Source of the DNA: Sporanaerobium hydrogeniformans
GTDB lineage: Bacteria; Bacillota; Clostridia; Lachnospirales; Cellulosilyticaceae
Assembly: GCF_002735925.1 (NCBI RefSeq)
Contig: NZ_PEDL01000002.1
Span: 62,001 to 126,000, forward strand
DNA length: 64,000 nt
Direction: 5' to 3'
Made by a program: the position numbers and the translations under genes. Every line of letters starts with the position of its first letter. The first letter of the stretch is position 1. Positions 6,915-53,801 of the stretch are shown piece by piece. A model generated the notes under the pieces. It was not told the origin of the DNA. It saw nothing but the letters and a program-made list of their open reading frames with translations, and did no database searches.

Positions 6915-6930
6915 GATGAGAAATAAGAAT

Positions 6931-6975
6931 AAAGGAGCTGTGACATTAAATCATTTAGTGCATAGCTTCTTTTTT
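6931..6975 (+). terminator. terminator of the putP operon
   Basis: AAAGGAGCUGUG (6931-6942) pairs throughout (with two G-U pairs) with CAUAGCUUCUUU (6961-6972), then a T run. Confidence 0.75.
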
Positions 6976-7171
6976 GTATGCCAAAGAGGATACACTATAC
7001 TTTGGAATGTCAACACTTTTTCGGACATTTTTCATAAGGTCAGATTACATTTACCATCAAACTTTCTGACTCTAAACGGTATTTATTCCACGTTCCCTTT
7101 ACAATGAGCCTCTAGCAACATGTTCAATGGCATCAGAGGCATCTCCTAATAGTTATAGAAGAGTCCAGTAA
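6976..7171. other. decayed intergenic DNA
   Basis: No convincing gene or RNA. A TTGACA on the minus strand lies near 7010 (GTGTTGACATTCC) without a good -10 box. Together with the gene fragments that follow, this looks like a degraded region. Confidence 0.4.
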
Positions 7172-7306
7172 GCTGAGATACCTTACCAAATAGCAGAAAT
7201 TGCTGAGCGTCTTAGCTATAGCAATGTGCAGAATTTCATTCGTGTATTCAAGAAACATAAGGACTTTATTCTAAGACGATCTATTTACAAGGTGGTAGCC
7301 ATGTGA
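7172..7306 (+). pseudogene. remnant of an AraC-family regulator C-terminus
   Basis: An in-frame stretch directly behind a stop codon reads IPYQIAEIAERLSYSNVQNF followed by IRVFKKHKDF. This is the second helix-turn-helix of AraC-type regulators (normally IxEIAxxVGYSNxxYFxRVFKKxxG). It has no start codon, ribosome site or upstream domain, and after it the reading frame runs into unrelated residues and a stop. It is a fragment of a lost regulator, perhaps one that controlled the adjacent pectin genes. Confidence 0.65.
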
Positions 7307-7345
7307 TAGCCTTTTTTGGAGGAGATGTCACTGCGTTAGTACTAA

Positions 7346-7546
7346 ATGAATAGGGAAATGAAGGTACCATTGGCAAAAACATATGAACTTAAATGGCTTT
7401 ATGCAGGGCCATTTAAGCACCTACCAGAAATAGAAAAGTTAATAGACTTTAAAAGTCCTATAGAAACAGCAGTGGGAACGGACTACTGGCGAGTAGACCA
7501 GCCTAAAATGTGGATAAGACCTTTTAAAGAGGAACAGGAATTGTGA
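7346..7546 (+). pseudogene. truncated N-terminal fragment, probably of a carbohydrate-active protein
   Basis: A 66-codon frame with the motifs WLYAGPF, TDYWRVDQPKMWIRPF and EEQEL, then a stop. WLxxGPF near the N-terminus and YWR..P..YIRP resemble the start of bacterial glycan-degrading proteins (a GH105-type partner is one guess), but the rest of such a protein is missing. No good ribosome site precedes the ATG at 7346; the alternative ATG at 7358 has only AGGGAA. It lies between the AraC remnant and GH28, so I treat it as a relic of the same locus. Confidence 0.4.
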
Positions 7547-7594
7547 TGCTTGCAGGAATAGAAATAGAAAAAATGAAGCAGGAAGAGGTCGAGT

Positions 7595-20956: not shown

Positions 20957-22722
20957 CTATATGTTTTCTAAAGGAATGCGGAAAGAGATACAAGTACCCA
21001 TGCCTTTTTTGCTAAGAATTTTAAGTTGATACTCAAAACCATAGGTGAGCATAAGACGACGATTCAGGTTAGTGATACCAATATTTTTACTTTTTTCACT
21101 TTGGATACGTGCATATAAGTTTTTGACTTCTTCTTTAGTAAGTCCTACACCTGAATCAATTACAGTAAAGTAGAGATGGTTTTCTCTAGCATAAGCCTTT
21201 AGTTTAATATAACCTGTATGTTCTAGTGGGCGGATACCGTGACTAATACTATTTTCAATTAAGGGCTGAAGCATAAGTCGAAAGACCTTATAGGAAAGGA
21301 TTGTATCATCTACCTCATAATAAATGATGAACTGCTCTCCATAACGCATTTTTTGAATAGCTGTGTATTTTTTTAGATAATCGAGTTCATCTTGTAAACA
21401 AGTGCCAGTGGCTGCATCCTCCAGTGCATACTTTAAAATGTCTGATAAATAACGAATCATTTGATTTAATTGTGTAGGTTTTCCAGTGAGTCTTAAAGCA
21501 TTAAAGTCAAGAGCTTGCAAGGTATTAAAGAGGAAGTGAGGATTAATTTGTAACTGAAGAGCAGCAAGCTCTGCAATCTCTTGCTTATATTGTTTTTGGG
21601 CAAGTTGTTGATGAAGTTGATTAGATTTTAGGAAAATGTTAATTACATTATTTAAAATAAGTCCATATTCATCATTAGTAGCATGGGAGGGTAAGGGTGT
21701 AACAATACCTTTTTCAGCTGACTCAAAGACATTTACAATATGCTCAATTTGTTGAAAGTTTTTCTTGGTAGTAATATAGGACAAAATAAGAGTGACAAGG
21801 CAGTTTCCTATAAGGACGCATAAAAAAGTTAAAAAGGTATCCTTTCCATGCTCAAAAAATCGTTCAATAGGAACAAGAGATAAAAAAGAAATATCATACT
21901 GCTTTAAGGTAAAGCTTTGAAAGAGGTAAAGCTTTTGATGAATGGTGACCCAGGAATTATTAAGTGAAGAGAGATTTTCTACACTATTAATAAGATTCTG
22001 AAGGCTACCCGAAGAACGAGCAAGGAGAGGAGCTCCATTATCATTAGAGGTAAGTATATGATGTTCTGCATCTAAGAGATAAAGAAATTCAGCGTTATCC
22101 GAAGTACTACTATTTAAAGTATCTATAAATTGTGAAGAATTGATATTGATGACAATGAGTCCTGAAATATTGTGCATAGGTTGAAAAATAGAGATGACTT
22201 CTTTCTCAGGTATGTAATTAAATTCTTTATAAGAGCGCTTTTTAATCCATTGTTTTTTTAAAGAGCCCTTTTGTTCATACTCATCTAGCCATGAACGATC
22301 TGGATAGGTAGCTAATGTATTAATTCCGTTTTTAGAAGAGAAGAAGGTATTTAAGCCATCTAAATAGAGATAGATAGAATCAATATCAGGGTGAGAATTA
22401 GCAACAGTACTGAGGATTGTTTTCATACTATTTAAGAAAACCACATCCTCATACTCAAAATGTTGCTTCGAAAGAAGCTTTTCTAAAGAAAGGACAAGTC
22501 TGGGGTTATAAGTTAAAAGTTCATATTGATAAGCTGAGTTGCTAATAACAAACTCAAAGTTTTCTTGTAAGCGACTAAGTGTATTTTTAGACTGTTGATG
22601 AATGTTAATGGAACTATTGATACTAATAAAGACAATAGCAATAAAACAAAATAAAAGGTTGGAACGAGCATAATTAAAGAAAAGGTACGAAAGCGTTTTA
22701 AAAAAAATTTTTTCATCATCAT
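20957..22722 (-). CDS. YesM-type sensor histidine kinase, frameshifted as given
   Basis: Membrane kinase of sugar locus 1. Read with one added base at the A8 tract (22700-22707) it is about 588 residues: an N-terminal membrane helix (LLFCFIAIVFIS), an extracellular sensor region, a second helix near VLIGNCLVTLILSYITT, HAMP, the His box LQINPHFLFNTLQ, and a HATPase domain with LQPLIENSISHG and DSGVGL. As given, the ATG at 22722 (ATGA overlap with the regulator stop, GAGAGG upstream) opens a frame that ends after 69 codons, while the kinase frame is open from before 22700 but has no start codon. The paralogue at 52032 is 589 residues, supporting the repair. Confidence 0.85.
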
Positions 22723-23468
22723 GAGTAAAACCTCTCAGGATATTTTTTTTCTCTGTATTCAGTAGGTGTCATTTTATAATACTGCTTAAAGGAACGAGAA
22801 AAATTTTTGGGATTGTCATAACCTACATAATAAGCAATTTCGTAATGCTTGTATTGAATATTATCTAACATTTTAGCAGCTTCTTTCATGCGTATTTCAT
22901 ATAAATAGTCAGAGAAACTAGTGCCTGCTTTATCTTTAAAGAGCTTAGAAAGATAATTAGGGCTTAAGTTTACCAAAATAGCTGCTTCTTCTAAAGTAGC
23001 ACTTCTAAAATTTTCTTTAATATAGGAACAAATTGTAGAAATAATTTTATCATAGTAGGGTTGACCCTGAATGGCTTCGGTAACATGGTTTTCTTGATCA
23101 AGAGTAATTTTGAGCTGTTCAAAGCAGGCATAGAGCTTTTCATAATGAATAGGTTTAAGAAGATAATCACTGGCATGATTAATAATGGCAGTATGTAAAT
23201 AAGAAAAATCTTGATAGCCTGTTAAAAAAACAAATTTGATATGGGGGTAATCCTTTACTAAATGATTACTGAGTTCAATGCCAGTCATTACAGGCATCTT
23301 TATATCCGTTAAGATGACGTCTGTAGGATGCGTTTTAATAAAATCTAAGGCTTGGAGGCCATTTGAAAACTGTCCGATAATTTTAAAACCTACTTTATCC
23401 CAAGGGAAAAGATGAGTAAGTCCTTCACGTATATTTAATTCATCATCAATAATTATAAGTGAATACAT
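22719..23468 (-). CDS. YesN-type response regulator, AraC-family output
   Basis: 249 residues: receiver domain with IIIDDELNIREGL, phospho-acceptor Asp in DVILTDIKMPVMTG (near 54), Thr/Lys switch residues in FLTGYQDF and LLKPI, and a C-terminal AraC double helix-turn-helix (ATLEEAAILVNLSPNYLSKL, then the GYDNPKNFSRSFKQYYKMTP end). Partner of the YesM kinase behind it (4-base ATGA overlap). The expected target is the divergent sugar ABC operon, whose promoter carries a 19-bp direct repeat. ATG at 23468 follows AGAGGTGA; a longer frame from 23519 lacks a ribosome site. Confidence 0.92.
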   Translation of the reverse strand: MYSLIIIDDELNIREGLTHLFPWDKVGFKIIGQFSNGLQALDFIKTHPTDVILTDIKMPVMTGIELSNHLVKDYPHIKFVFLTGYQDFSYLHTAIINHASDYLLKPIHYEKLYACFEQLKITLDQENHVTEAIQGQPYYDKIISTICSYIKENFRSATLEEAAILVNLSPNYLSKLFKDKAGTSFSDYLYEIRMKEAAKMLDNIQYKHYEIAYYVGYDNPKNFSRSFKQYYKMTPTEYREKKYPERFYS

Positions 23469-23520
23469 AAGTTCTATCACCTCTTTGTAAATTACAAATA
23501 GAAATAAGATATTATTCATT

Positions 23521-23738: not shown

Positions 23739-25088
23739 ATGAAAAAAAGTTTAGCATTAGGTTTAATAGTTTTATTAACAACAGGTTTAATAAGTGGATG
23801 TGGTAATGGAGGGAGTAAGCAAGAGGCAACTCCAGCTTCCCCTCAATTAGAAGCATCAAAAACACCTAGTGAAACAAGTAAAGAACCTGTTACGTTACGT
23901 TTTTCTTGGTGGGGAGGAGATGAAAGGAATGAAGCTACATTAAAGGTTATTGAAAAGTTTGAGGCAGAATATCCTCATATTACCATTGAACCTGAATTTG
24001 GAGGAAGTGATGGATATCAAGAAAAACTTTCTACTTCTTTAGCAGGAAATGCAGCAGCAGATATTATTCAAAACGGAACAGGTTGGATGCCAGATTTTGT
24101 TTCTAGAGGGGATTTCTTTATTGACTTTAATACATATAAGGAACAAATTGATTTATCTGGTTTTGATGCACAGTATTTAGAGAACGTAGGAACTTTTGAT
24201 GGAAAGCTTCTTGGCTTACCAACAGGTATCGCTGGACCTACTTTTCTTATTAATAAAACATTGGCAACTAAGATTGGGTTAGAGGTTCCTCAAGATTTAA
24301 CTTGGGAGGATTTAATTACCCTTGGTAAAAAAGTAAAAGAATATGATAATAACCTTTATTTACTCAATATGGATTCTTCAACTTTAAAAACACACGTATT
24401 AAGACCTTATATTCTTCAATTAACAGGTACTCCATTCATCGATGATGAAGCAAAAGTGCCAAGCTTTACAAATGAACAGTTGCTTCAGGTAATGGATTAC
24501 ATTAAAGCATTATATGATAATAATGTGGTACAGCCAGCTAGTGAAAGTGCTTCTTTTAAAGATGCAGTTCAGACCAATCCAAAGTGGATAGCAGGTGAAT
24601 TCGTAGGGATTCTGACAGACTCTTCAAGAGTAGATGTTATGACAAGTGCTAATACGGAAGTGGAATATATGATTGCTTCTATGCCACAATTACAAGACAA
24701 GAAAAATGATGGGTACTATGCGAATCCACCTCAGTTGATGTGTATTAATAAAGCAAGTAAGCATATTGAAGAAGCAGTTCTTTTCCTAGATTATTTCTAT
24801 AATAATGCAGAAGCGGCAGAGATATTAAAGGATCTACGTTCTGTTCCTCCAACAGCACAGGCAAGAGAAATTTGTGAAGAAAAGGCACTTATTAGTCCTC
24901 TTGTAAAAGAGGCTGTTGACAAAGCACTTGAGTTAAATGGTACAAATGAAATGGGCTTAACAACCGATGGAGAAATTGAAGCTGTAATGGATGATATGAT
25001 AGAATCAGTTATTTATGGAAAGACAGGTACTGTGGAAGCAGTAGATAATGCAGTCAAAATGTTTACACATGTGCTTTCTGATAAATAA
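23739..25088 (+). CDS. sugar ABC transporter substrate-binding lipoprotein (locus 1)
   Basis: 449 residues, family 1 (MalE-like) binding protein. Signal peptide with lipobox LISGC, lipidated Cys at residue 21, then a low-complexity linker (GGSKQEATPASPQ). The mature part has RFSWWGGDERNEATLKVI and the FEAEYPHITIEPEF pattern common to oligosaccharide binders. It captures sugars at the outer face and delivers them to the two permeases downstream. AGGAGG precedes the ATG. A terminator-like hairpin follows, as is common where the binding protein is needed in excess. Confidence 0.93.
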   Translation: MKKSLALGLIVLLTTGLISGCGNGGSKQEATPASPQLEASKTPSETSKEPVTLRFSWWGGDERNEATLKVIEKFEAEYPHITIEPEFGGSDGYQEKLSTSLAGNAAADIIQNGTGWMPDFVSRGDFFIDFNTYKEQIDLSGFDAQYLENVGTFDGKLLGLPTGIAGPTFLINKTLATKIGLEVPQDLTWEDLITLGKKVKEYDNNLYLLNMDSSTLKTHVLRPYILQLTGTPFIDDEAKVPSFTNEQLLQVMDYIKALYDNNVVQPASESASFKDAVQTNPKWIAGEFVGILTDSSRVDVMTSANTEVEYMIASMPQLQDKKNDGYYANPPQLMCINKASKHIEEAVLFLDYFYNNAEAAEILKDLRSVPPTAQAREICEEKALISPLVKEAVDKALELNGTNEMGLTTDGEIEAVMDDMIESVIYGKTGTVEAVDNAVKMFTHVLSDK

Positions 25089-25112
25089 TACCTATTTAAG
25101 GTGAAAAAGTAT

Positions 25113-25167
25113 GCTGCCATAGATGTTATTACAAGTTTTCTTGTAAACTTTTTATGGCAGTTTTTTT
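25113..25167 (+). terminator. partial terminator between binding protein and permease genes
   Basis: CTGCCATA (25114-25121) pairs with TATGGCAG (25153-25160), enclosing a TTACAAG/CTTGTAA pair, then seven Ts. Placed inside the operon it should reduce permease and enzyme expression relative to the binding protein. Confidence 0.7.
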
Positions 25168-25185
25168 AGACTAGGAGGTTAGACG

Positions 25186-26088
25186 ATGAAGAGATCAAGA
25201 CAGCATTATTGCAAAAGAGATTATATGGGATTGGTGTATATACTGCCTTGGTTATTAGGCCTTTTACTTTTACAACTGTATCCTTTCATAACTTCTTTCT
25301 ATTATTCTTTTACCGATTATAGCTTTTTTAACACCCCTAAATTAGTGGGACTTAAAAACTATATAAGGCTATTTACTATTGACCCGGAATTTTTTAATTC
25401 CTTAAAAGTAACCCTTATCTATACTCTTTATACTGTACCAGGTAAATTGATCATGGCTCTTTTTATAGCTGTTATTTTAAATAAAAATTTAAAAGGTATT
25501 AATTTTATAAGGACTATTTATTACCTACCCTCTTTATTTGGTGGGAGTGTAGCTGTAGCTATTTTATGGAAGCTCTTGTTTATGAGCGATGGTGCTATTA
25601 ATAACATTCTTCAATTTTTACATTTACCAACTGTAGAATGGCTTGGTAATCCAGATGTAGCACTTAAAACAATTTGTTTACTAGAAATATGGCAATTTGG
25701 CTCATCTATGGTTATGTTCCTAGCTGCACTTAAACAAGTACCAAGATCGCTTTATGAAGCAGCTCAAATTGACGGAGCAGGAAAGATTAAAATCTTTTTT
25801 AAAATAACCATTCCACAAATTACACCGATTATCTTCTTTAATTTAATTATGCAAACTATATCAGCACTTCAAAACTTCACTTCGGCTTTTGTTGTGACGA
25901 CAGGAGGTCCCAATAAAGCTACTTATGTATTAGGGATGAAGCTTTATACAGATGCATTTTCACACTATAAGATGGGTTATGCCAGTGCGACTTCTTGGAT
26001 AATCTTTATTTTAATTATGATAATAACTTTACTCCTATTTAGATTTTCATCTGGATGGGTATATTACGAAGATGGCGATGACTTCTAG
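25186..26088 (+). CDS. sugar ABC transporter permease (UgpA/LacF type, locus 1)
   Basis: 300 residues, six expected helices. The protein has the YILPWLLGLLLLQLYPF start of CUT1 permeases and an EAA loop, EAAQIDGAGKIKIFFKITIP, near residue 187, which contacts the ATPase. First of two permeases of the importer. AGGAGG precedes the ATG. No ATPase gene follows; a shared MsmX-type subunit elsewhere is expected from how CUT1 systems work in Firmicutes. Confidence 0.92.
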   Translation: MKRSRQHYCKRDYMGLVYILPWLLGLLLLQLYPFITSFYYSFTDYSFFNTPKLVGLKNYIRLFTIDPEFFNSLKVTLIYTLYTVPGKLIMALFIAVILNKNLKGINFIRTIYYLPSLFGGSVAVAILWKLLFMSDGAINNILQFLHLPTVEWLGNPDVALKTICLLEIWQFGSSMVMFLAALKQVPRSLYEAAQIDGAGKIKIFFKITIPQITPIIFFNLIMQTISALQNFTSAFVVTTGGPNKATYVLGMKLYTDAFSHYKMGYASATSWIIFILIMIITLLLFRFSSGWVYYEDGDDF

Positions 26089-26098
26089 GAGGGATATA

Positions 26099-26944
26099 AT
26101 GAATAATCATAAAAAAACATTAAAGCTTGTAGTAAGCTATGGACTAATTGGGTTAGTAGGACTTTTTATGCTCTATCCCATTGTATGGATGGTACTTGCC
26201 ACCTTTAAGACGAATGCAGAAATTTTTGGTTCTTTAAAATTATTACCTGAAAGTTTTAGTTTAGATGCCTATATAAATGGTTGGAGAGGTATTGGTAAAT
26301 ATAGTTTTAGTAGATATTTTATGAATACCTTTAAATTAGTTATACCTGTTACACTGTTTACCATTTGCTCATGTGCAGTAGTAGCATATGGTTTTGCACG
26401 TTTTAAGTTTCCTTTTAAGCGTATTTTGTTTGTTGTACTTATTTCTACTTTGATGCTTCCTAATACAGTTATTATTATTCCAAGATATGCACAATTTAAC
26501 CAATTAGGATGGCTTAATAGCTATATGCCTTTTTATGTACCCGCATTACTTGCATGCTACCCTTTTTTTATATTTATGATGATTCAATTTATTAGAGGGC
26601 TTCCTAAGGAATTAGATGAATCGGCCTATATGGATGGATGTGGTACTTTTCGCTGCTTTATGAGCATTTTAGTACCTTTATTAAAACCCGCTTTATTCTC
26701 AGCAGGTTTATTCCAGTTTTTATGGACATACAATGATTTCTTCAACTCTCTCATTTTTATCAACAGTGTTGAAAAATATCCTGTTTCACTTGCACTTCGA
26801 ATGGCTATTGATGCAGAAGCTAATGTACAATGGGGACAAGTTATTGCCATGGCTTTTGTAACCGTTGCACCTTTAATTATCCTTTTCTTCTCTGCTCAGA
26901 AGTATTTTGTAGAAGGTATTGCAACAAGTGGGTTAAAAGGTTAA
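26099..26944 (+). CDS. sugar ABC transporter permease (UgpE/LacG type, locus 1)
   Basis: 281 residues, partner of the preceding permease. Starts with a helix FMLYPIVWMVLATFK, and has the EAA loop ELDESAYMDGCGTFRCFMSI near residue 170 and the typical YFVEGIATSGLKG end. I place the start at the ATG at 26099, eight bases after AGGAGGG; the reading frame is open further upstream to 26072, inside the previous gene, without a ribosome site. Confidence 0.92.
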   Translation: MNNHKKTLKLVVSYGLIGLVGLFMLYPIVWMVLATFKTNAEIFGSLKLLPESFSLDAYINGWRGIGKYSFSRYFMNTFKLVIPVTLFTICSCAVVAYGFARFKFPFKRILFVVLISTLMLPNTVIIIPRYAQFNQLGWLNSYMPFYVPALLACYPFFIFMMIQFIRGLPKELDESAYMDGCGTFRCFMSILVPLLKPALFSAGLFQFLWTYNDFFNSLIFINSVEKYPVSLALRMAIDAEANVQWGQVIAMAFVTVAPLIILFFSAQKYFVEGIATSGLKG

Positions 26945-31009: not shown

Positions 31010-34000
31010 ATGCCAGTACCGTTTACACACTTACATGTACATACAGAATACAGTCTTTTAGATGGTTCGGCAAAAATTAAGCATTTATTAGCTCGTACCA
31101 AGGAACTAGGAATGAATAGCTTAGCTATTACAGACCATGGTGTGATGTATGGTGTCATTGATTTTTATAAGGCAGCGAAAGATATGGGTATTAAGCCCAT
31201 TATTGGCTGTGAAGTTTATTTAGCTTCAAGGACAAGAAAGGATAAAGAGCCTATAGATGCACGCTCTAATCACTTAGTTTTACTTGCTAAGAATCAAACA
31301 GGCTACCAAAACTTAATTCATATGGTATCTACAGCTTTTACAGAAGGCTTTTATCATAAACCACGTATAGATTATGAACTTTTAGAAAACCATCATGAGG
31401 GGCTTATTGCTTTAGGAGCCTGCCTTGCAGGACCAGTAAGCCGTCTTCTTTTAGAAGATCAGTATGAGAAAGCTAAAGAAGTAGCTCTTCGTTTAAAAGA
31501 TATCTTTGGTGAAGATAATTTTTATCTGGAGCTTCAAGATCATGGTATGAAAGAACAAGCTAAGGTCAATCAGCTGACCTTACGTCTTGCAGAAGAAACA
31601 GGAATTGCTCTTGTTGTTACCAATGATGTGCACTACATTACAGAGGAAGATGCTCATCCACATGAAGTCCTACTGTGTATACAAACAGGTAAGACTATGG
31701 AGGATGAGGACCGTATGATCTACGAAGGAGGTCAATATTTCCTTAAGAGTCCTGAAGAGATGGAGAAGCTTTTCCCTTATGCGAAAGAAGCTTTACTCAA
31801 TACTCAAAAGATTGCAGAACGCTGTAATGTAGAATTTGTATTTCATGAACTAAAACTGCCCGTTTTTGATGTACCAGATGGTAAAACCAGTGAAGACTTC
31901 CTGAGAGAGCGTTGCTATGAGGGGCTTGCTAAGCGCTATGAACCTATTACACAGGAACTTAAAGAGCGAATGGAGTATGAACTAGGTGTCATTATCCAAA
32001 TGGGATTTGTGGACTATTTCCTAATTACAGGTGATTTTATTAAGTATGCTAAAGAGCAAGGTATTCCCGTTGGACCAGGACGAGGATCAGCAGCAGGAAG
32101 TCTTGTAGCATATGCTTTAGAAATTACAAATATTGATCCTATTCGCTATCAGCTTTTGTTTGAGCGCTTTCTTAATCCTGAACGTGTCAGTATGCCTGAT
32201 ATCGATATTGACTTTTGCTATGAGAGACGTCAAGAAGTTATTGATTATGTGATTAGCAAGTATGGAGAAGACAGGGTGGCTCAAATTGTTACCTTTGGAA
32301 CACTGGCAGCGCGTGGTGTTATTCGTGATGTGGGTAGGGCCATTAATATGCCCTATCAAGAGGTAGACCGTATAGCTAAGATGATTCCAAATGAATTAAA
32401 AATTACGATTCATAAAGCGCTAGAGATGAATGCAGAATTACGAGATCTTTATGAAAGTCAAGAGGAAGTGAAGTACCTTATTGATATTGCCCGAAAATTA
32501 GAGGGCTTACCACGACATTCTTCTATGCATGCTGCTGGAGTTGTCATTTCAAAAGCACCAGTTGGAGAGTATGTGCCATTAAGTGCCAGTGAGGGGGTTG
32601 TGACCACTCAATTTCCTATGACGACTTTAGAAGAATTAGGACTTCTTAAGATGGATTTCTTAGGTTTAAGAACGCTTACAGTTATAGACAATGCTGTAAA
32701 GCTTGTTAATAAAAATCATAAGATTCAATTAGATATTGAGAAGATAGATTATGATGATAAAAAAGTATATGAGCTAATTGCCTCAGGAGCAACAGAAGGT
32801 GTTTTCCAACTGGAAAGCGCAGGGATGAAGAGCTTTATGAAGGAGCTAGCGCCAAGTAGTATGGAGGATATCATTGCAGGAATCTCTTTGTACCGCCCAG
32901 GACCTATGGACTTTATTCCTAAATATGTACAAGGAAAAAGAGATAAAAACAGCATTACCTATACTCATCCAAGCCTCGAACCTATTTTGAAAAACACCTA
33001 TGGCTGTATTGTTTATCAGGAACAGGTTATGCAGATTGTACGAGACCTTGCAGGTTATAGTCTAGGGAGAAGTGACCTTCTGCGCCGTGCCATGGGTAAA
33101 AAGAAAACAGAAGTTATGAATAAAGAACGTCACATCTTTTTAAATGGGGATGGAGAAAGTATACCTGGTTGTATTAAAAAGGGTATACCAAAGGAAATAG
33201 CAGAAAAGATTTTTGATGATATGGTAGACTTGCAAAGTATGCTTTTAATAAATCTCATGCTGCAGCATATGCTGTGGTAGCTTATCAGACAGCTTATTTA
33301 AAACAGTATTACAAAGTAGAGTTTATGGCAGCTCTCATGACATCTGTTATGGATGTATCTACTAAAATTACTGGTTATATGGAAACATGTCGTCGAATGG
33401 AGATTGCGGTTTTATCTCCAGATATTAATGAAGGCTATGCTTATTTTGATGCCAAGGATAACCAGATTATCTATGGTTTAGCTGCACTTAAAAATGTAGG
33501 AAAAAATGTAATTGACCATATTGTAGAAGAGCGTGAGAGAGGTGGTAAGTTTAAAAGCTTAACCGATTTTTATAATCGAATGGATACAAAAGATACGAAT
33601 AAACGTAGTATTGAAAGTTTGATTTTAGCAGGGGCTTTTGATAAATTAGGTGGTAGACGCAGTCAATATTTGGCTGTGTATCAGCAAATTTCATCAGGAA
33701 TTAACTTAAGCCGTAAAAACAATATTGCAGGGCAAATGGATTTATTTGCATTAGGAAGAGAAAATGAAGAAATAGTACAAGACTATGATCATTTGCCGGA
33801 TATCCCAGAATTTGAAATGAAAGATATGTTAGCTTATGAAAAGGATGTTTTAGGTATTTATTTAAGTGGACATCCCTTGGATAAAGTAAGAGGTCAGTTA
33901 GAACGCTATATATCCCATACAGGTAGTGATTTCATTTTAAAAGAAGAAGAGGATGAAAATGTACAAGATGGTCAACGAGTTATTGTAGGAGGAATCCTGG

Positions 34001-34473
34001 TAGAAAAGAGAGTTATTTATACAAAAAATAATAAAAAAATGGCTTTTGTTACGTTAGAAGATTTAACTGGTACAATGGAGATCATTATTTTCCCAACCTT
34101 GTATGATCAGTTTGCCAGCTTCCCAGAAGATAGTGTCTATATGGTGAAAGGACGTATTTCAATTAAAGAAGAAACAGCAGCAGTGATTTTAGCCGATGAA
34201 CTAACAACATTAGAAATACTTATGACACCCCAATGTGAGGAAGGTCTTATCCTTCATCTTGATAAAAATCAACGTACTCAAGCTATGCGAGAAAAATTGC
34301 TACACATATTTGAAAAACACAAAGGGAATGCTAAAATTATAGTTCAGAATAAAGAAGATGGCACACAAAAAATCTTCCCAAAGCGCTATAATGTGGCATT
34401 AACTGATGAACTTATACAAGAAGTTAGTCAATTAGTAGGTGAGAAATGTATGGTTGTCCATAAATTGTCGTAA
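31010..34473 (+). CDS. dnaE: DNA polymerase III alpha subunit DnaE, frameshifted as given
   Basis: One gene split by a missing base. The first frame (31010-33280) has the PHP domain (FTHLHVHTEYSLLDG), the catalytic MPDIDIDF (near residue 395) and GPGRGSAAGS; the second (33274-34473) has the helix-hairpin-helix and OB regions (QMDLFA, KKMAFVTLEDLTGTMEIIIF). At the junction GACTTGCAAAGTATGC should read GACTTTGCAAAGTATGC; one T added at 33230-33231 restores DFAKYAFNKSHAAAYAVVAY. The repaired length is about 1154 residues, normal for DnaE. The upstream 30812-31009 holds no gene; a GGGGGGC plus T10 run there is unexplained. Confidence 0.93.
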
Positions 34474-50542: not shown

Positions 50543-52057
50543 ATGAATAGAAAGCTAAAGATATTTATTGTCGATGATGAAATGATGGCGATACAGTATT
50601 TAAAAAGTTTATTAGAAAAAGCTTCTCCTTTCTATCAAGTAATAGGAGAAGCTTTTAATGGTGCAATGGCATTGCCACAGATCATACGGTTAAAACCGGA
50701 TATTGTTTTTATAGATATCAGGATGCCTATAATGGATGGACTAGAGTTATCAGAAAAAATATTAGCACAAAATAAGATTGTAAAAATTATTTTACTTACC
50801 TCTTATAGAGATTTTGACTATGTAAAAAAAGGGATGGAGATAGGCGTTACTTCTTATCTATTAAAAAATGAATTAACACAAAAAAGTGTGGATGAAGAAT
50901 TAATAAAGATAGGTGAGCAACTGAGTGGAGAGAGAAAAAAATCCCATCGTTATACGCAGTATAACTTAAGAAGGTTTTTGGTATCTCAAGGAGAAGAAAT
51001 GATAGGTGATTTAGAGGACGGTGATGTGGGATACGCATTAGTCTATATTGCATACAGTAGACCCATTGGGAGTGACCAGTGGGTAAGGAGAACAGAGGAA
51101 GTAGATGCAATAGCACTAGAAGACTTAGCTGTAGATGGAGGTGTAAGCTGTCGCAATGCCATCCATATGGAGAATGGAAGCAGTTGTTCTATTATGATAA
51201 TACAGAAAGATGTAGGAGATAGTAGCCAATTATTAATAGAATATGCGAATAAAGTAAAAGGTTATTGTAACGAAAAAAATGTGGCTGTAAGCTGTATCAT
51301 CTCTGATAGGGTAGGTAGTTTTTTTCAACTTCCAACACTTTATAAAGAAATGGAACAGAAGAGTAACTATTTATTTCGTTATGGCAAAGAAGTTGTTATA
51401 CGTCAAAAAGATATAGTAGAACCTCAGCAAGACCCCATAAAGATTAGAACCACACAGGACATAAGGAAGTGGGTAGAAAAACTGTTTACGTACCAGAAAG
51501 AGGAAAGTGACGAAATACTTAAAAAGGCAATAGAAGATTTTGCAAAGTGTTATGATTTCCAAGGCTTTAACGAAAGAATAAGAGAGCTATGGATAGTCTT
51601 TAAATATTTTGCGGAGTCTCATAGTACCTACAATGCTTGGCCACAAGCTATCTATACGGTAGAAGAAATAGTAGATGTATTTTTGGATTTGCTACACCAC
51701 CTAAGGTTAGAAAAAGAAGAGCAAGCTATAAAAGCCTATTCTAGAAAAATAATAGCAGCACTTACCTATATACATAACAATTATGAAAAGAATATTGCAA
51801 TACAGGATATAGCAGAAGCAGTTCATTTGTCGGAAGGGCATTTACGTAAGTTGTTTAGAAAGGAAGTAGACATTACATTAGTTGATTATTTGACCAATTA
51901 TCGGATTGCTAAAGCAAAGGAGATGATGAAGGCTGGAGAGGATAAAATCAGTGATATTTATACACAGGTAGGTTTTACCTCTAGTCAATATTTCAGCTAT
52001 GTATTTAAAAGAGTAGAGGGAGTTAGCCCAAGTGAATACCTTAAAAATTTACAATAA
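50543..52057 (+). CDS. YesN-type response regulator, AraC-family output (locus 2)
   Basis: 504 residues: receiver with FIVDDEMMAIQYL and phospho-Asp in DIVFIDIRMPIMDG (near 55), switch residues in LLTSYRDF and LLKNE (Asn-Glu after the Lys where KP is usual), a long middle linker region (about 130-400) without recognised domain, and a C-terminal AraC double helix-turn-helix (NIAIQDIAEAVHLSEGHLRK and VGFTSSQYFSYVFKRVEGVS). Overlaps its kinase by 26 bases. Expected to bind the 20-bp tandem repeats before the GH112 and binding-protein genes. Confidence 0.92.
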   Translation: MNRKLKIFIVDDEMMAIQYLKSLLEKASPFYQVIGEAFNGAMALPQIIRLKPDIVFIDIRMPIMDGLELSEKILAQNKIVKIILLTSYRDFDYVKKGMEIGVTSYLLKNELTQKSVDEELIKIGEQLSGERKKSHRYTQYNLRRFLVSQGEEMIGDLEDGDVGYALVYIAYSRPIGSDQWVRRTEEVDAIALEDLAVDGGVSCRNAIHMENGSSCSIMIIQKDVGDSSQLLIEYANKVKGYCNEKNVAVSCIISDRVGSFFQLPTLYKEMEQKSNYLFRYGKEVVIRQKDIVEPQQDPIKIRTTQDIRKWVEKLFTYQKEESDEILKKAIEDFAKCYDFQGFNERIRELWIVFKYFAESHSTYNAWPQAIYTVEEIVDVFLDLLHHLRLEKEEQAIKAYSRKIIAALTYIHNNYEKNIAIQDIAEAVHLSEGHLRKLFRKEVDITLVDYLTNYRIAKAKEMMKAGEDKISDIYTQVGFTSSQYFSYVFKRVEGVSPSEYLKNLQ

Positions 52058-53801
52058 AAGCAAGTATTTTAGGTACTCTATTAGCGCCAAACTAGTGGTG
52101 GCTGTTCTACTAACTGTTACTTGTATTTGGATTATTAATGCAACTTATAACTATAGCTATTTTTTTAATTTATTAAAAGAACAAGCTGTTAGAGATGAAA
52201 GTCAAAAGTTACAGTATGTAGTAACACAAGTCAATAATATGCAAGATGAAGTCATTCGGCTTGCTAGGCAGATGTCTATAGAGAGTGAAATACAAGCAAT
52301 CGCACAATATGAAGAAAAGGATATATTTGATAAACTTGTTATTAAAGGAAATATAAAAAAGAAATTAATGAGTTATATCAATGTAAGAGATTATTTATAC
52401 AGCGTGTCTGTTATAACACCTTATACAGAAATTTTATCGAGTAATCAACAAGAGATTGTATTTGATCCAGCAGAAGAAGCATGGTACGGCGAGTTAAAGG
52501 AGAAACACCCAAAGGGAGGATTTTCTAGGCTTCATGGTTATCGATTAGAGCAAGAAAAAATACCACAACAGGTAATAAGTTATTTGATTACCTATCGTAA
52601 TATGAATGTTCCACAAGATATTATAGGAGACATTATTATAAACGTAGGACATAAAGAACTGGAGAGTCTTGTAAAATTAGAGGACACCCTATTAAGTGGA
52701 TATGCCCTATATGATAAATGGGGAGATGCATTAGTAGAAAAGGGAACTATTACAGCCACGATAGAAGAGTGTCTATCGACCAAACAGCAAGAGTTACTAT
52801 TAGAAAATGGCAATATACTATTGGTTAACACTGATTTAAAAGATGGATGGCTATTTGTTAGTGAGATATCAAAGGCATTATTAGTAGACAAACTAAAGTA
52901 TCTTCAATATTTTTTTGTTGGGGTAGGAATTATTGGGTTAGTCTTGGTGTATATCATCCTCTATTACTTTATTAAGAAGCTCATGAATCCAGTAGAGCAA
53001 TTACATCAGGCTGCAATAGAGGTAGGAAAAGGTAATTTTAGTTTTCAAGTAAATATTCATACCTGTGATGAGTGGGAAGTATTAGGGCATGCATTTAACA
53101 ACATGGTAAATAACATAGAGAATTTAATGAAAGAATCGGTAGAGAAAGAACGTATTTTAAAAGAGATGGAGCTTAATAGATTGATGCTTCAGATTAATCC
53201 ACATTTTATCTATAATACGTTAAATAACATTGTTTACATGGCACAAAAAGTGGAGGCAACAGAAATTATAGCATTTACAAATGCTTTTACTTCTTTGTTG
53301 CAAGATACGATTAAACTTAACAAAGACAGCATTATGACTACCTTAGATCAGGAGATAAAAAACATTAAAAATTATCTTATCTTACAGCAGTACCGTTATC
53401 CGGATAGATTTGAGATAACTTATAGTTATGATGAGAAATTACTAAAGTGTGAAATACCCAACATATTGTTGCAGCCTCTAGTAGAAAATGCGATTTTCCA
53501 TGGTTTGGCAGCTAAGCTTGAAAAAGGTTCTCTTGTAATAACTATTACTCAAGTAGAGGAGCAGCTAAGATTAAGTGTAGCAGATAGTGGAATAGGCATG
53601 TCAAAAGAACGTATACAAGATTTGCTACAAAATGATCAAGAGATCAAAGGGGAAATGAGAAGCATTGGAGTAGCTAATGTAAGACAGCGTATTCAACAGA
53701 TTTATGGAGCTAAAGGGAACTTAACAATAGATAGTGTAGAAGGTGTTGGAACACAGGTAGTGATTCATATTCCTTATTATGTAGCACGAGAAAATAATTA
53801 G
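52032..53801 (+). CDS. YesM-type sensor histidine kinase (locus 2)
   Basis: 589 residues: membrane helix near 19-41 (ISAKLVVAVLLTVTCIWII), extracellular sensor of about 245 residues, second helix near 293-315 (FVGVGIIGLVLVYIILYYFI), HAMP, His box LMLQINPHFIYNTLNN, and HATPase with LQPLVENAIFHG, DSGIGM and a glycine-rich end. GTG start at 52032, about nine bases behind GGGAGT, inside the regulator gene. It should sense the oligosaccharide, directly or through the binding protein, and phosphorylate the YesN protein. Confidence 0.9.
   Translation: MNTLKIYNKSKYFRYSISAKLVVAVLLTVTCIWIINATYNYSYFFNLLKEQAVRDESQKLQYVVTQVNNMQDEVIRLARQMSIESEIQAIAQYEEKDIFDKLVIKGNIKKKLMSYINVRDYLYSVSVITPYTEILSSNQQEIVFDPAEEAWYGELKEKHPKGGFSRLHGYRLEQEKIPQQVISYLITYRNMNVPQDIIGDIIINVGHKELESLVKLEDTLLSGYALYDKWGDALVEKGTITATIEECLSTKQQELLLENGNILLVNTDLKDGWLFVSEISKALLVDKLKYLQYFFVGVGIIGLVLVYIILYYFIKKLMNPVEQLHQAAIEVGKGNFSFQVNIHTCDEWEVLGHAFNNMVNNIENLMKESVEKERILKEMELNRLMLQINPHFIYNTLNNIVYMAQKVEATEIIAFTNAFTSLLQDTIKLNKDSIMTTLDQEIKNIKNYLILQQYRYPDRFEITYSYDEKLLKCEIPNILLQPLVENAIFHGLAAKLEKGSLVITITQVEEQLRLSVADSGIGMSKERIQDLLQNDQEIKGEMRSIGVANVRQRIQQIYGAKGNLTIDSVEGVGTQVVIHIPYYVARENN

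Follow-up and report, generated by a model that had tools for sequence, protein, structure and literature searches.

We conclude that, most probably, the YesM-type sensor histidine kinase of the living strain is intact and ordinary, with translation beginning at the ATG at position 22722 of the (-) strand, and the assembly lacks a single base of this gene within the interval 22605-22662. We assign this reading a probability of roughly 0.86. Unless a contig or another genome is named, positions refer to the window, the whole stretch of 64,000 nucleotides that was analysed. The deletion in the assembly would fall among the codons for the first membrane span and would separate the start from the rest of the kinase frame, and the error would be one of the sequence rather than of the strain. 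The kinase itself is likely to sense an extracellular sugar and to control the adjoining uptake genes.

The frame conflict is genuinely present in the window sequence. From this sequence and the list of open reading frames, the stop codon of the regulator gene is overlapped, as ATGA, by the ATG at 22722(-), and the frame that begins with this ATG ends after 69 codons (22513-22722, (-)), with the first 20 to 35 or so of its codons encoding the kinase's conserved N-terminus. An A/T tract near the start of the gene does not interrupt the kinase frame (20957-22708, (-)), in which, according to the open reading frames, the first start codon is the GTG at 22444. The overlap, the 69-codon frame, and the open kinase frame devoid of a start had all been described in an earlier note on this DNA and were confirmed in our analysis, as was the existence of a second kinase of 589 amino acids, which we located at 52032-53801 in the window. 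Downstream of the break, the kinase frame contains no further stop or break.

The remainder of the kinase gene (20957-22662, (-)) encodes matches to His_kinase (PF06580) and HATPase_c at 79 and 40.2 bits, respectively, both over the curated cut-offs of 25.2 and 26.4, together with a weak match to dCache_1 at 31.9 bits, below the cut-off of 45. A test for a partner regulator adjoining a YesM-type kinase identified the gene at 22719-23519(-), whose product contains a receiver domain and an AraC-type helix-turn-helix domain (Response_reg and HTH_18) and is of the YesN type. A carbohydrate ABC transporter consisting of a binding protein and two permeases (23739-26944, (+)) neighbours the pair, and GH95 and GH43 enzymes are also encoded beside it.

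For comparison, we used four orthologs of the kinase: L009 and L010, from two genomes of the same family (38% identical), L038 from Konateibacter massiliensis (43%), and L039 from Candidatus Galacturonibacter soehngenii (42%). The latter two were the usable ones among four loci obtained in a scan of named genomes. In all four relatives, the gene consists of a single open frame of 584 to 600 amino acids. Another ortholog, L011, was excluded because its start lies at the edge of a contig. In the first 100 bases of L011 (G021:C29), we observed a start region unlike that of the other orthologs and a stop immediately preceding the homologous part. The ortholog L012 (31% identical), which has a differing start, was aligned but was excluded from the switch-point sums, the 12-codon counts, and the comparison of tracts and heptamers described below.

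The four relatives share the N-terminal stretch M-x-x-K-F-F-x-(K/R)-R-F-(R/K)-x-Y-x-x-I-M-(L/I)-(L/I)-P. Both before and after the tract, the ATG frame carries this stretch nearly intact, with F in place of Y and V in place of one L/I, and alignment with the four relatives revealed that the stretch is absent from the kinase frame. Over the 12 codons directly past the tract, 6, 6, 7, and 7 of the 12 residues encoded in the ATG frame match those of the four relatives, compared with at most 1 of 12 for the same codons read in the kinase frame, even at the best of three offsets. The relatives contain nothing equivalent to the portion of the kinase frame located between the tract and the break. Frameshift-aware alignment placed the frame change at 22620 against L009 and L010 and at 22632 against L038 and L039, with one residue being read from two bases at the frame change in each of these alignments. 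For the more distant L012, the break was set at 22659.

Switch-point scoring, in which the position of the switch was moved along the gene and the scores were summed over L009, L010, L038, and L039, yielded values of 781 to 813 across 22659-22605. The score was 791 at 22659, peaked at 813 at 22632, and was still 811 at 22617 and 791 at 22605, falling thereafter, whereas switch points in or just after the tract (22707-22692) scored only 556 to 606. Because both the frame changes of the alignments and the best switch points fall in the interval 22605-22662(-) and not at the tract, we place the loss of frame, one base too few, in that interval, which corresponds to the first membrane span and lies about 40 to 95 bases past the tract; the position is approximate. 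The earlier note had placed the loss of frame at the A8/T6 tract itself, a location that the switch-point scoring against the four relatives ruled out. A scan of the coding signal put the frame jump at 22732, before the tract, but a stretch this short gives such a scan little power, and we gave precedence to the homology evidence.

On the (+) strand, the tract comprises A8 at 22700-22707 and T6 at 22708-22713, as had been noted earlier. On the coding strand it reads A6T8 (22700-22713, (-)) and supplies the codons K-K-F-F-L in frame with the ATG, outside the break interval. The counterpart codons in the four relatives contain A3T6, A3T5, A6T5, and A6T2, so that tract length is not kept. Runs of at least eight A or T are common: they number 60 in the 404-kb contig and 6 in the window, while a second contig of the assembly has 52 over 400 kb and a 400-kb control has 38. 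We regard the tract as ordinary coding sequence with nothing special about it.

The earlier note had also raised phase variation or transcriptional slippage at the run as a possibility. Understood as a programmed mechanism at A6T8, either process would turn the kinase on and off. Such a mechanism would be served by an eight-base run positioned 10 to 20 bases after the start codon and by a kinase frame that is open across the run. The long run is not situated at the frame change, however, given that the break lies 40 to 95 bases further on; the relatives have single open frames, and their runs all differ in length from that of the kinase gene; and runs of this length are common in the contig. 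In the part of PMC3711429 available to us, transcriptional realignment is tied to Tn with n > 8, whereas n = 8 for the present tract. We consider regulation at the run to be extremely unlikely.

Two heptamers of the X XXY YYZ type are present in the ATG frame, TTTTTTA at 22705 and TTTAAAA at 22702; relative to that frame, the kinase frame lies at -1. It is nevertheless exceedingly improbable that programmed -1 ribosomal frameshifting, a route absent from the earlier note, yields the full-length kinase at the tract, with such heptamers being ubiquitous in this AT-rich genome: we counted 1017, including 83 copies of TTTTTTA, in 252 of the 271 open reading frames of at least 200 amino acids in contig C22. 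Moreover, three of the four relatives have no heptamer in their first 33 codons (L039 has two), and the break is downstream of the heptamers, with none found in the break interval itself and the only ones being at the tract. A real downstream deletion might also be combined with the T8 run and the heptamer T TTT TTA, which lie a few codons before it, in such a way that a minority of ribosomes or polymerases shift to the kinase frame. Slippage of this kind, which we regard as very unlikely, would keep a broken sensor alive at a low level with its first membrane span altered.

A frame-jump scan of the coding signal within one strand, performed on approximately 804 kb of the strain's own assembly (one 404-kb contig in full plus 400 kb of a second one), yielded 12 plus 14 candidates, or 26 in all. 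Six of these were called split genes: the kinase, dnaE, recA, argG, fliJ, and leuA. One candidate was a pair of different families, one was a pair resembling phage tail chaperones, one (C11:348225) was assigned to no class because its second half matches no family, and 17 appeared by eye to be ordinary neighbouring or overlapping genes. The dnaE gene (31010-34473 in the window, (+)) is split into two frames near 33228, but is a single open frame of 1151 to 1170 amino acids in all five relatives; no second DnaE-type copy was found in the genome, with the other long match being a PolC-like gene. The recA gene (C22:241640-242694, (+)) is divided, with positions 1-152 of the RecA model matching one frame and positions 153-262 the following one, and no other recA copy was found in the genome. 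The N-terminal and C-terminal domains of argG (C22:237635-238878, (-)) are in different frames, and no other argG copy in the genome scored over the cut-off. For fliJ (C22:255271-255731, (+)), the two frames match positions 1-64 and 79-139 of TIGR02473, and for one leuA (C11:211821-213400, (+)), they match positions 2-290 and 288-494 of TIGR00973; the LeuA dimer domain is carried by two other genes of the genome. From our reading of the sequences, dnaE, recA, argG, fliJ, and leuA each appear to be one base short, like the kinase. The identical scan of 400 kb of the single-contig relative G001, which served as a control, gave six candidates, five of them distinct; of the four pairs scanned (288533 was left out), none had both halves in one family, but several of the control halves match no family, so that this control was judged partly by eye.

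Several other loci were noted or set aside. The region C22:183521 was rejected as a single split gene, its halves belonging to different families. A kinase gene on C25 had been flagged as another break on account of an internal TAA, which proved to be the gene's own end, and a kinase gene on C14 with a short frame was found to be open with its start present. At C11:319377-319978, the frame after a phage tail gene (XkdN-like, of the tail assembly chaperone families) overlaps that gene and has no start close by. Programmed frameshifting is known for phage tail chaperones, and this arrangement is possibly an instance of that type within a prophage. At C11:347704-348494 (candidate at C11:348225), an FMN-reductase-like (flavodoxin-like) protein is followed by an open frame without a start; this second half matches no Pfam family and perhaps encodes the C-terminal part of the same protein beyond another frame break. 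Finally, the segment at 6915-7590 in the window, which separates a GDSL-type gene from the gene that follows, contains short coding-like pieces in several frames with many stops and looks like a decayed gene.

With regard to the kinase, each of the four relatives compared has the gene in one uninterrupted frame, and none shares the break. Breaks of the same kind also affect dnaE, recA, argG, fliJ, and one leuA, all of them conserved genes in this assembly. A strain in which recA, argG, and dnaE are all broken is hard to believe, and we therefore favour an assembly error for the kinase as well. Only dnaE, which is essential in Bacillus subtilis, argues strongly on the basis of viability, because cells can survive mutation of recA or argG and can do without fliJ and the kinase, and the dimer domain of leuA recurs in two other genes. 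It is conceivable, though unlikely, that the deletion is real and that the kinase gene has recently become a pseudogene in this strain, with the many similar kinases making the loss tolerable. The loss of one kinase would indeed be tolerated, given that the kinase frame has 32 matching places in the genome at E ≤ 0.001, and the absence of any additional lesion in the remaining frame fits recent loss as well as it does error. The similar breakage of recA, argG, and dnaE is, however, better explained by a shared technical cause than by separate mutations. Such a cause is the simplest account of the split genes, and the kinase fits it. The homopolymer error that the earlier note preferred as the simplest reading is thus upheld in part: an error of sequence is supported, but the A8 run is neither its site nor its cause, with the break being further on.

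For the kinase gene, the ATG is supported as the true start and the function as ordinary. Given that the assembly splits several conserved genes, its frame breaks, short open reading frames, and apparent pseudogenes should not be interpreted as biology without recourse to the reads.

In the part available to us, PMC3711429 sorts frame transitions according to their conservation, with singletons validated by homology being expected to be sequencing errors and not genuine indels. The kinase gene resembles the genes fragmented by single-base errors in draft assemblies, as treated in the available parts of PMC12007338 and PMC3711429, both in its isolated break, with relatives that have one open frame, and in the presence of similar damage to a number of conserved genes in this assembly. 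It differs from this pattern in that breaks also occur away from long homopolymers. Slippage and corrective frameshifting are reviewed in PMC5009743, as far as its available part extends. The likeness of the kinase gene to phase-variable or slippage-regulated genes consists of the eight-base A/T run and the slippery heptamer near its start, whereas the run is away from the break and neither the break nor the run length is conserved. With regard to function, the locus resembles the YesM/YesN-type two-component systems located beside sugar ABC transporters in Firmicutes, having a kinase with His_kinase and HATPase_c domains, a regulator with a receiver and an AraC-type helix-turn-helix domain, and an adjoining binding protein with two permeases. 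The only difference from these systems is the broken frame in this assembly.
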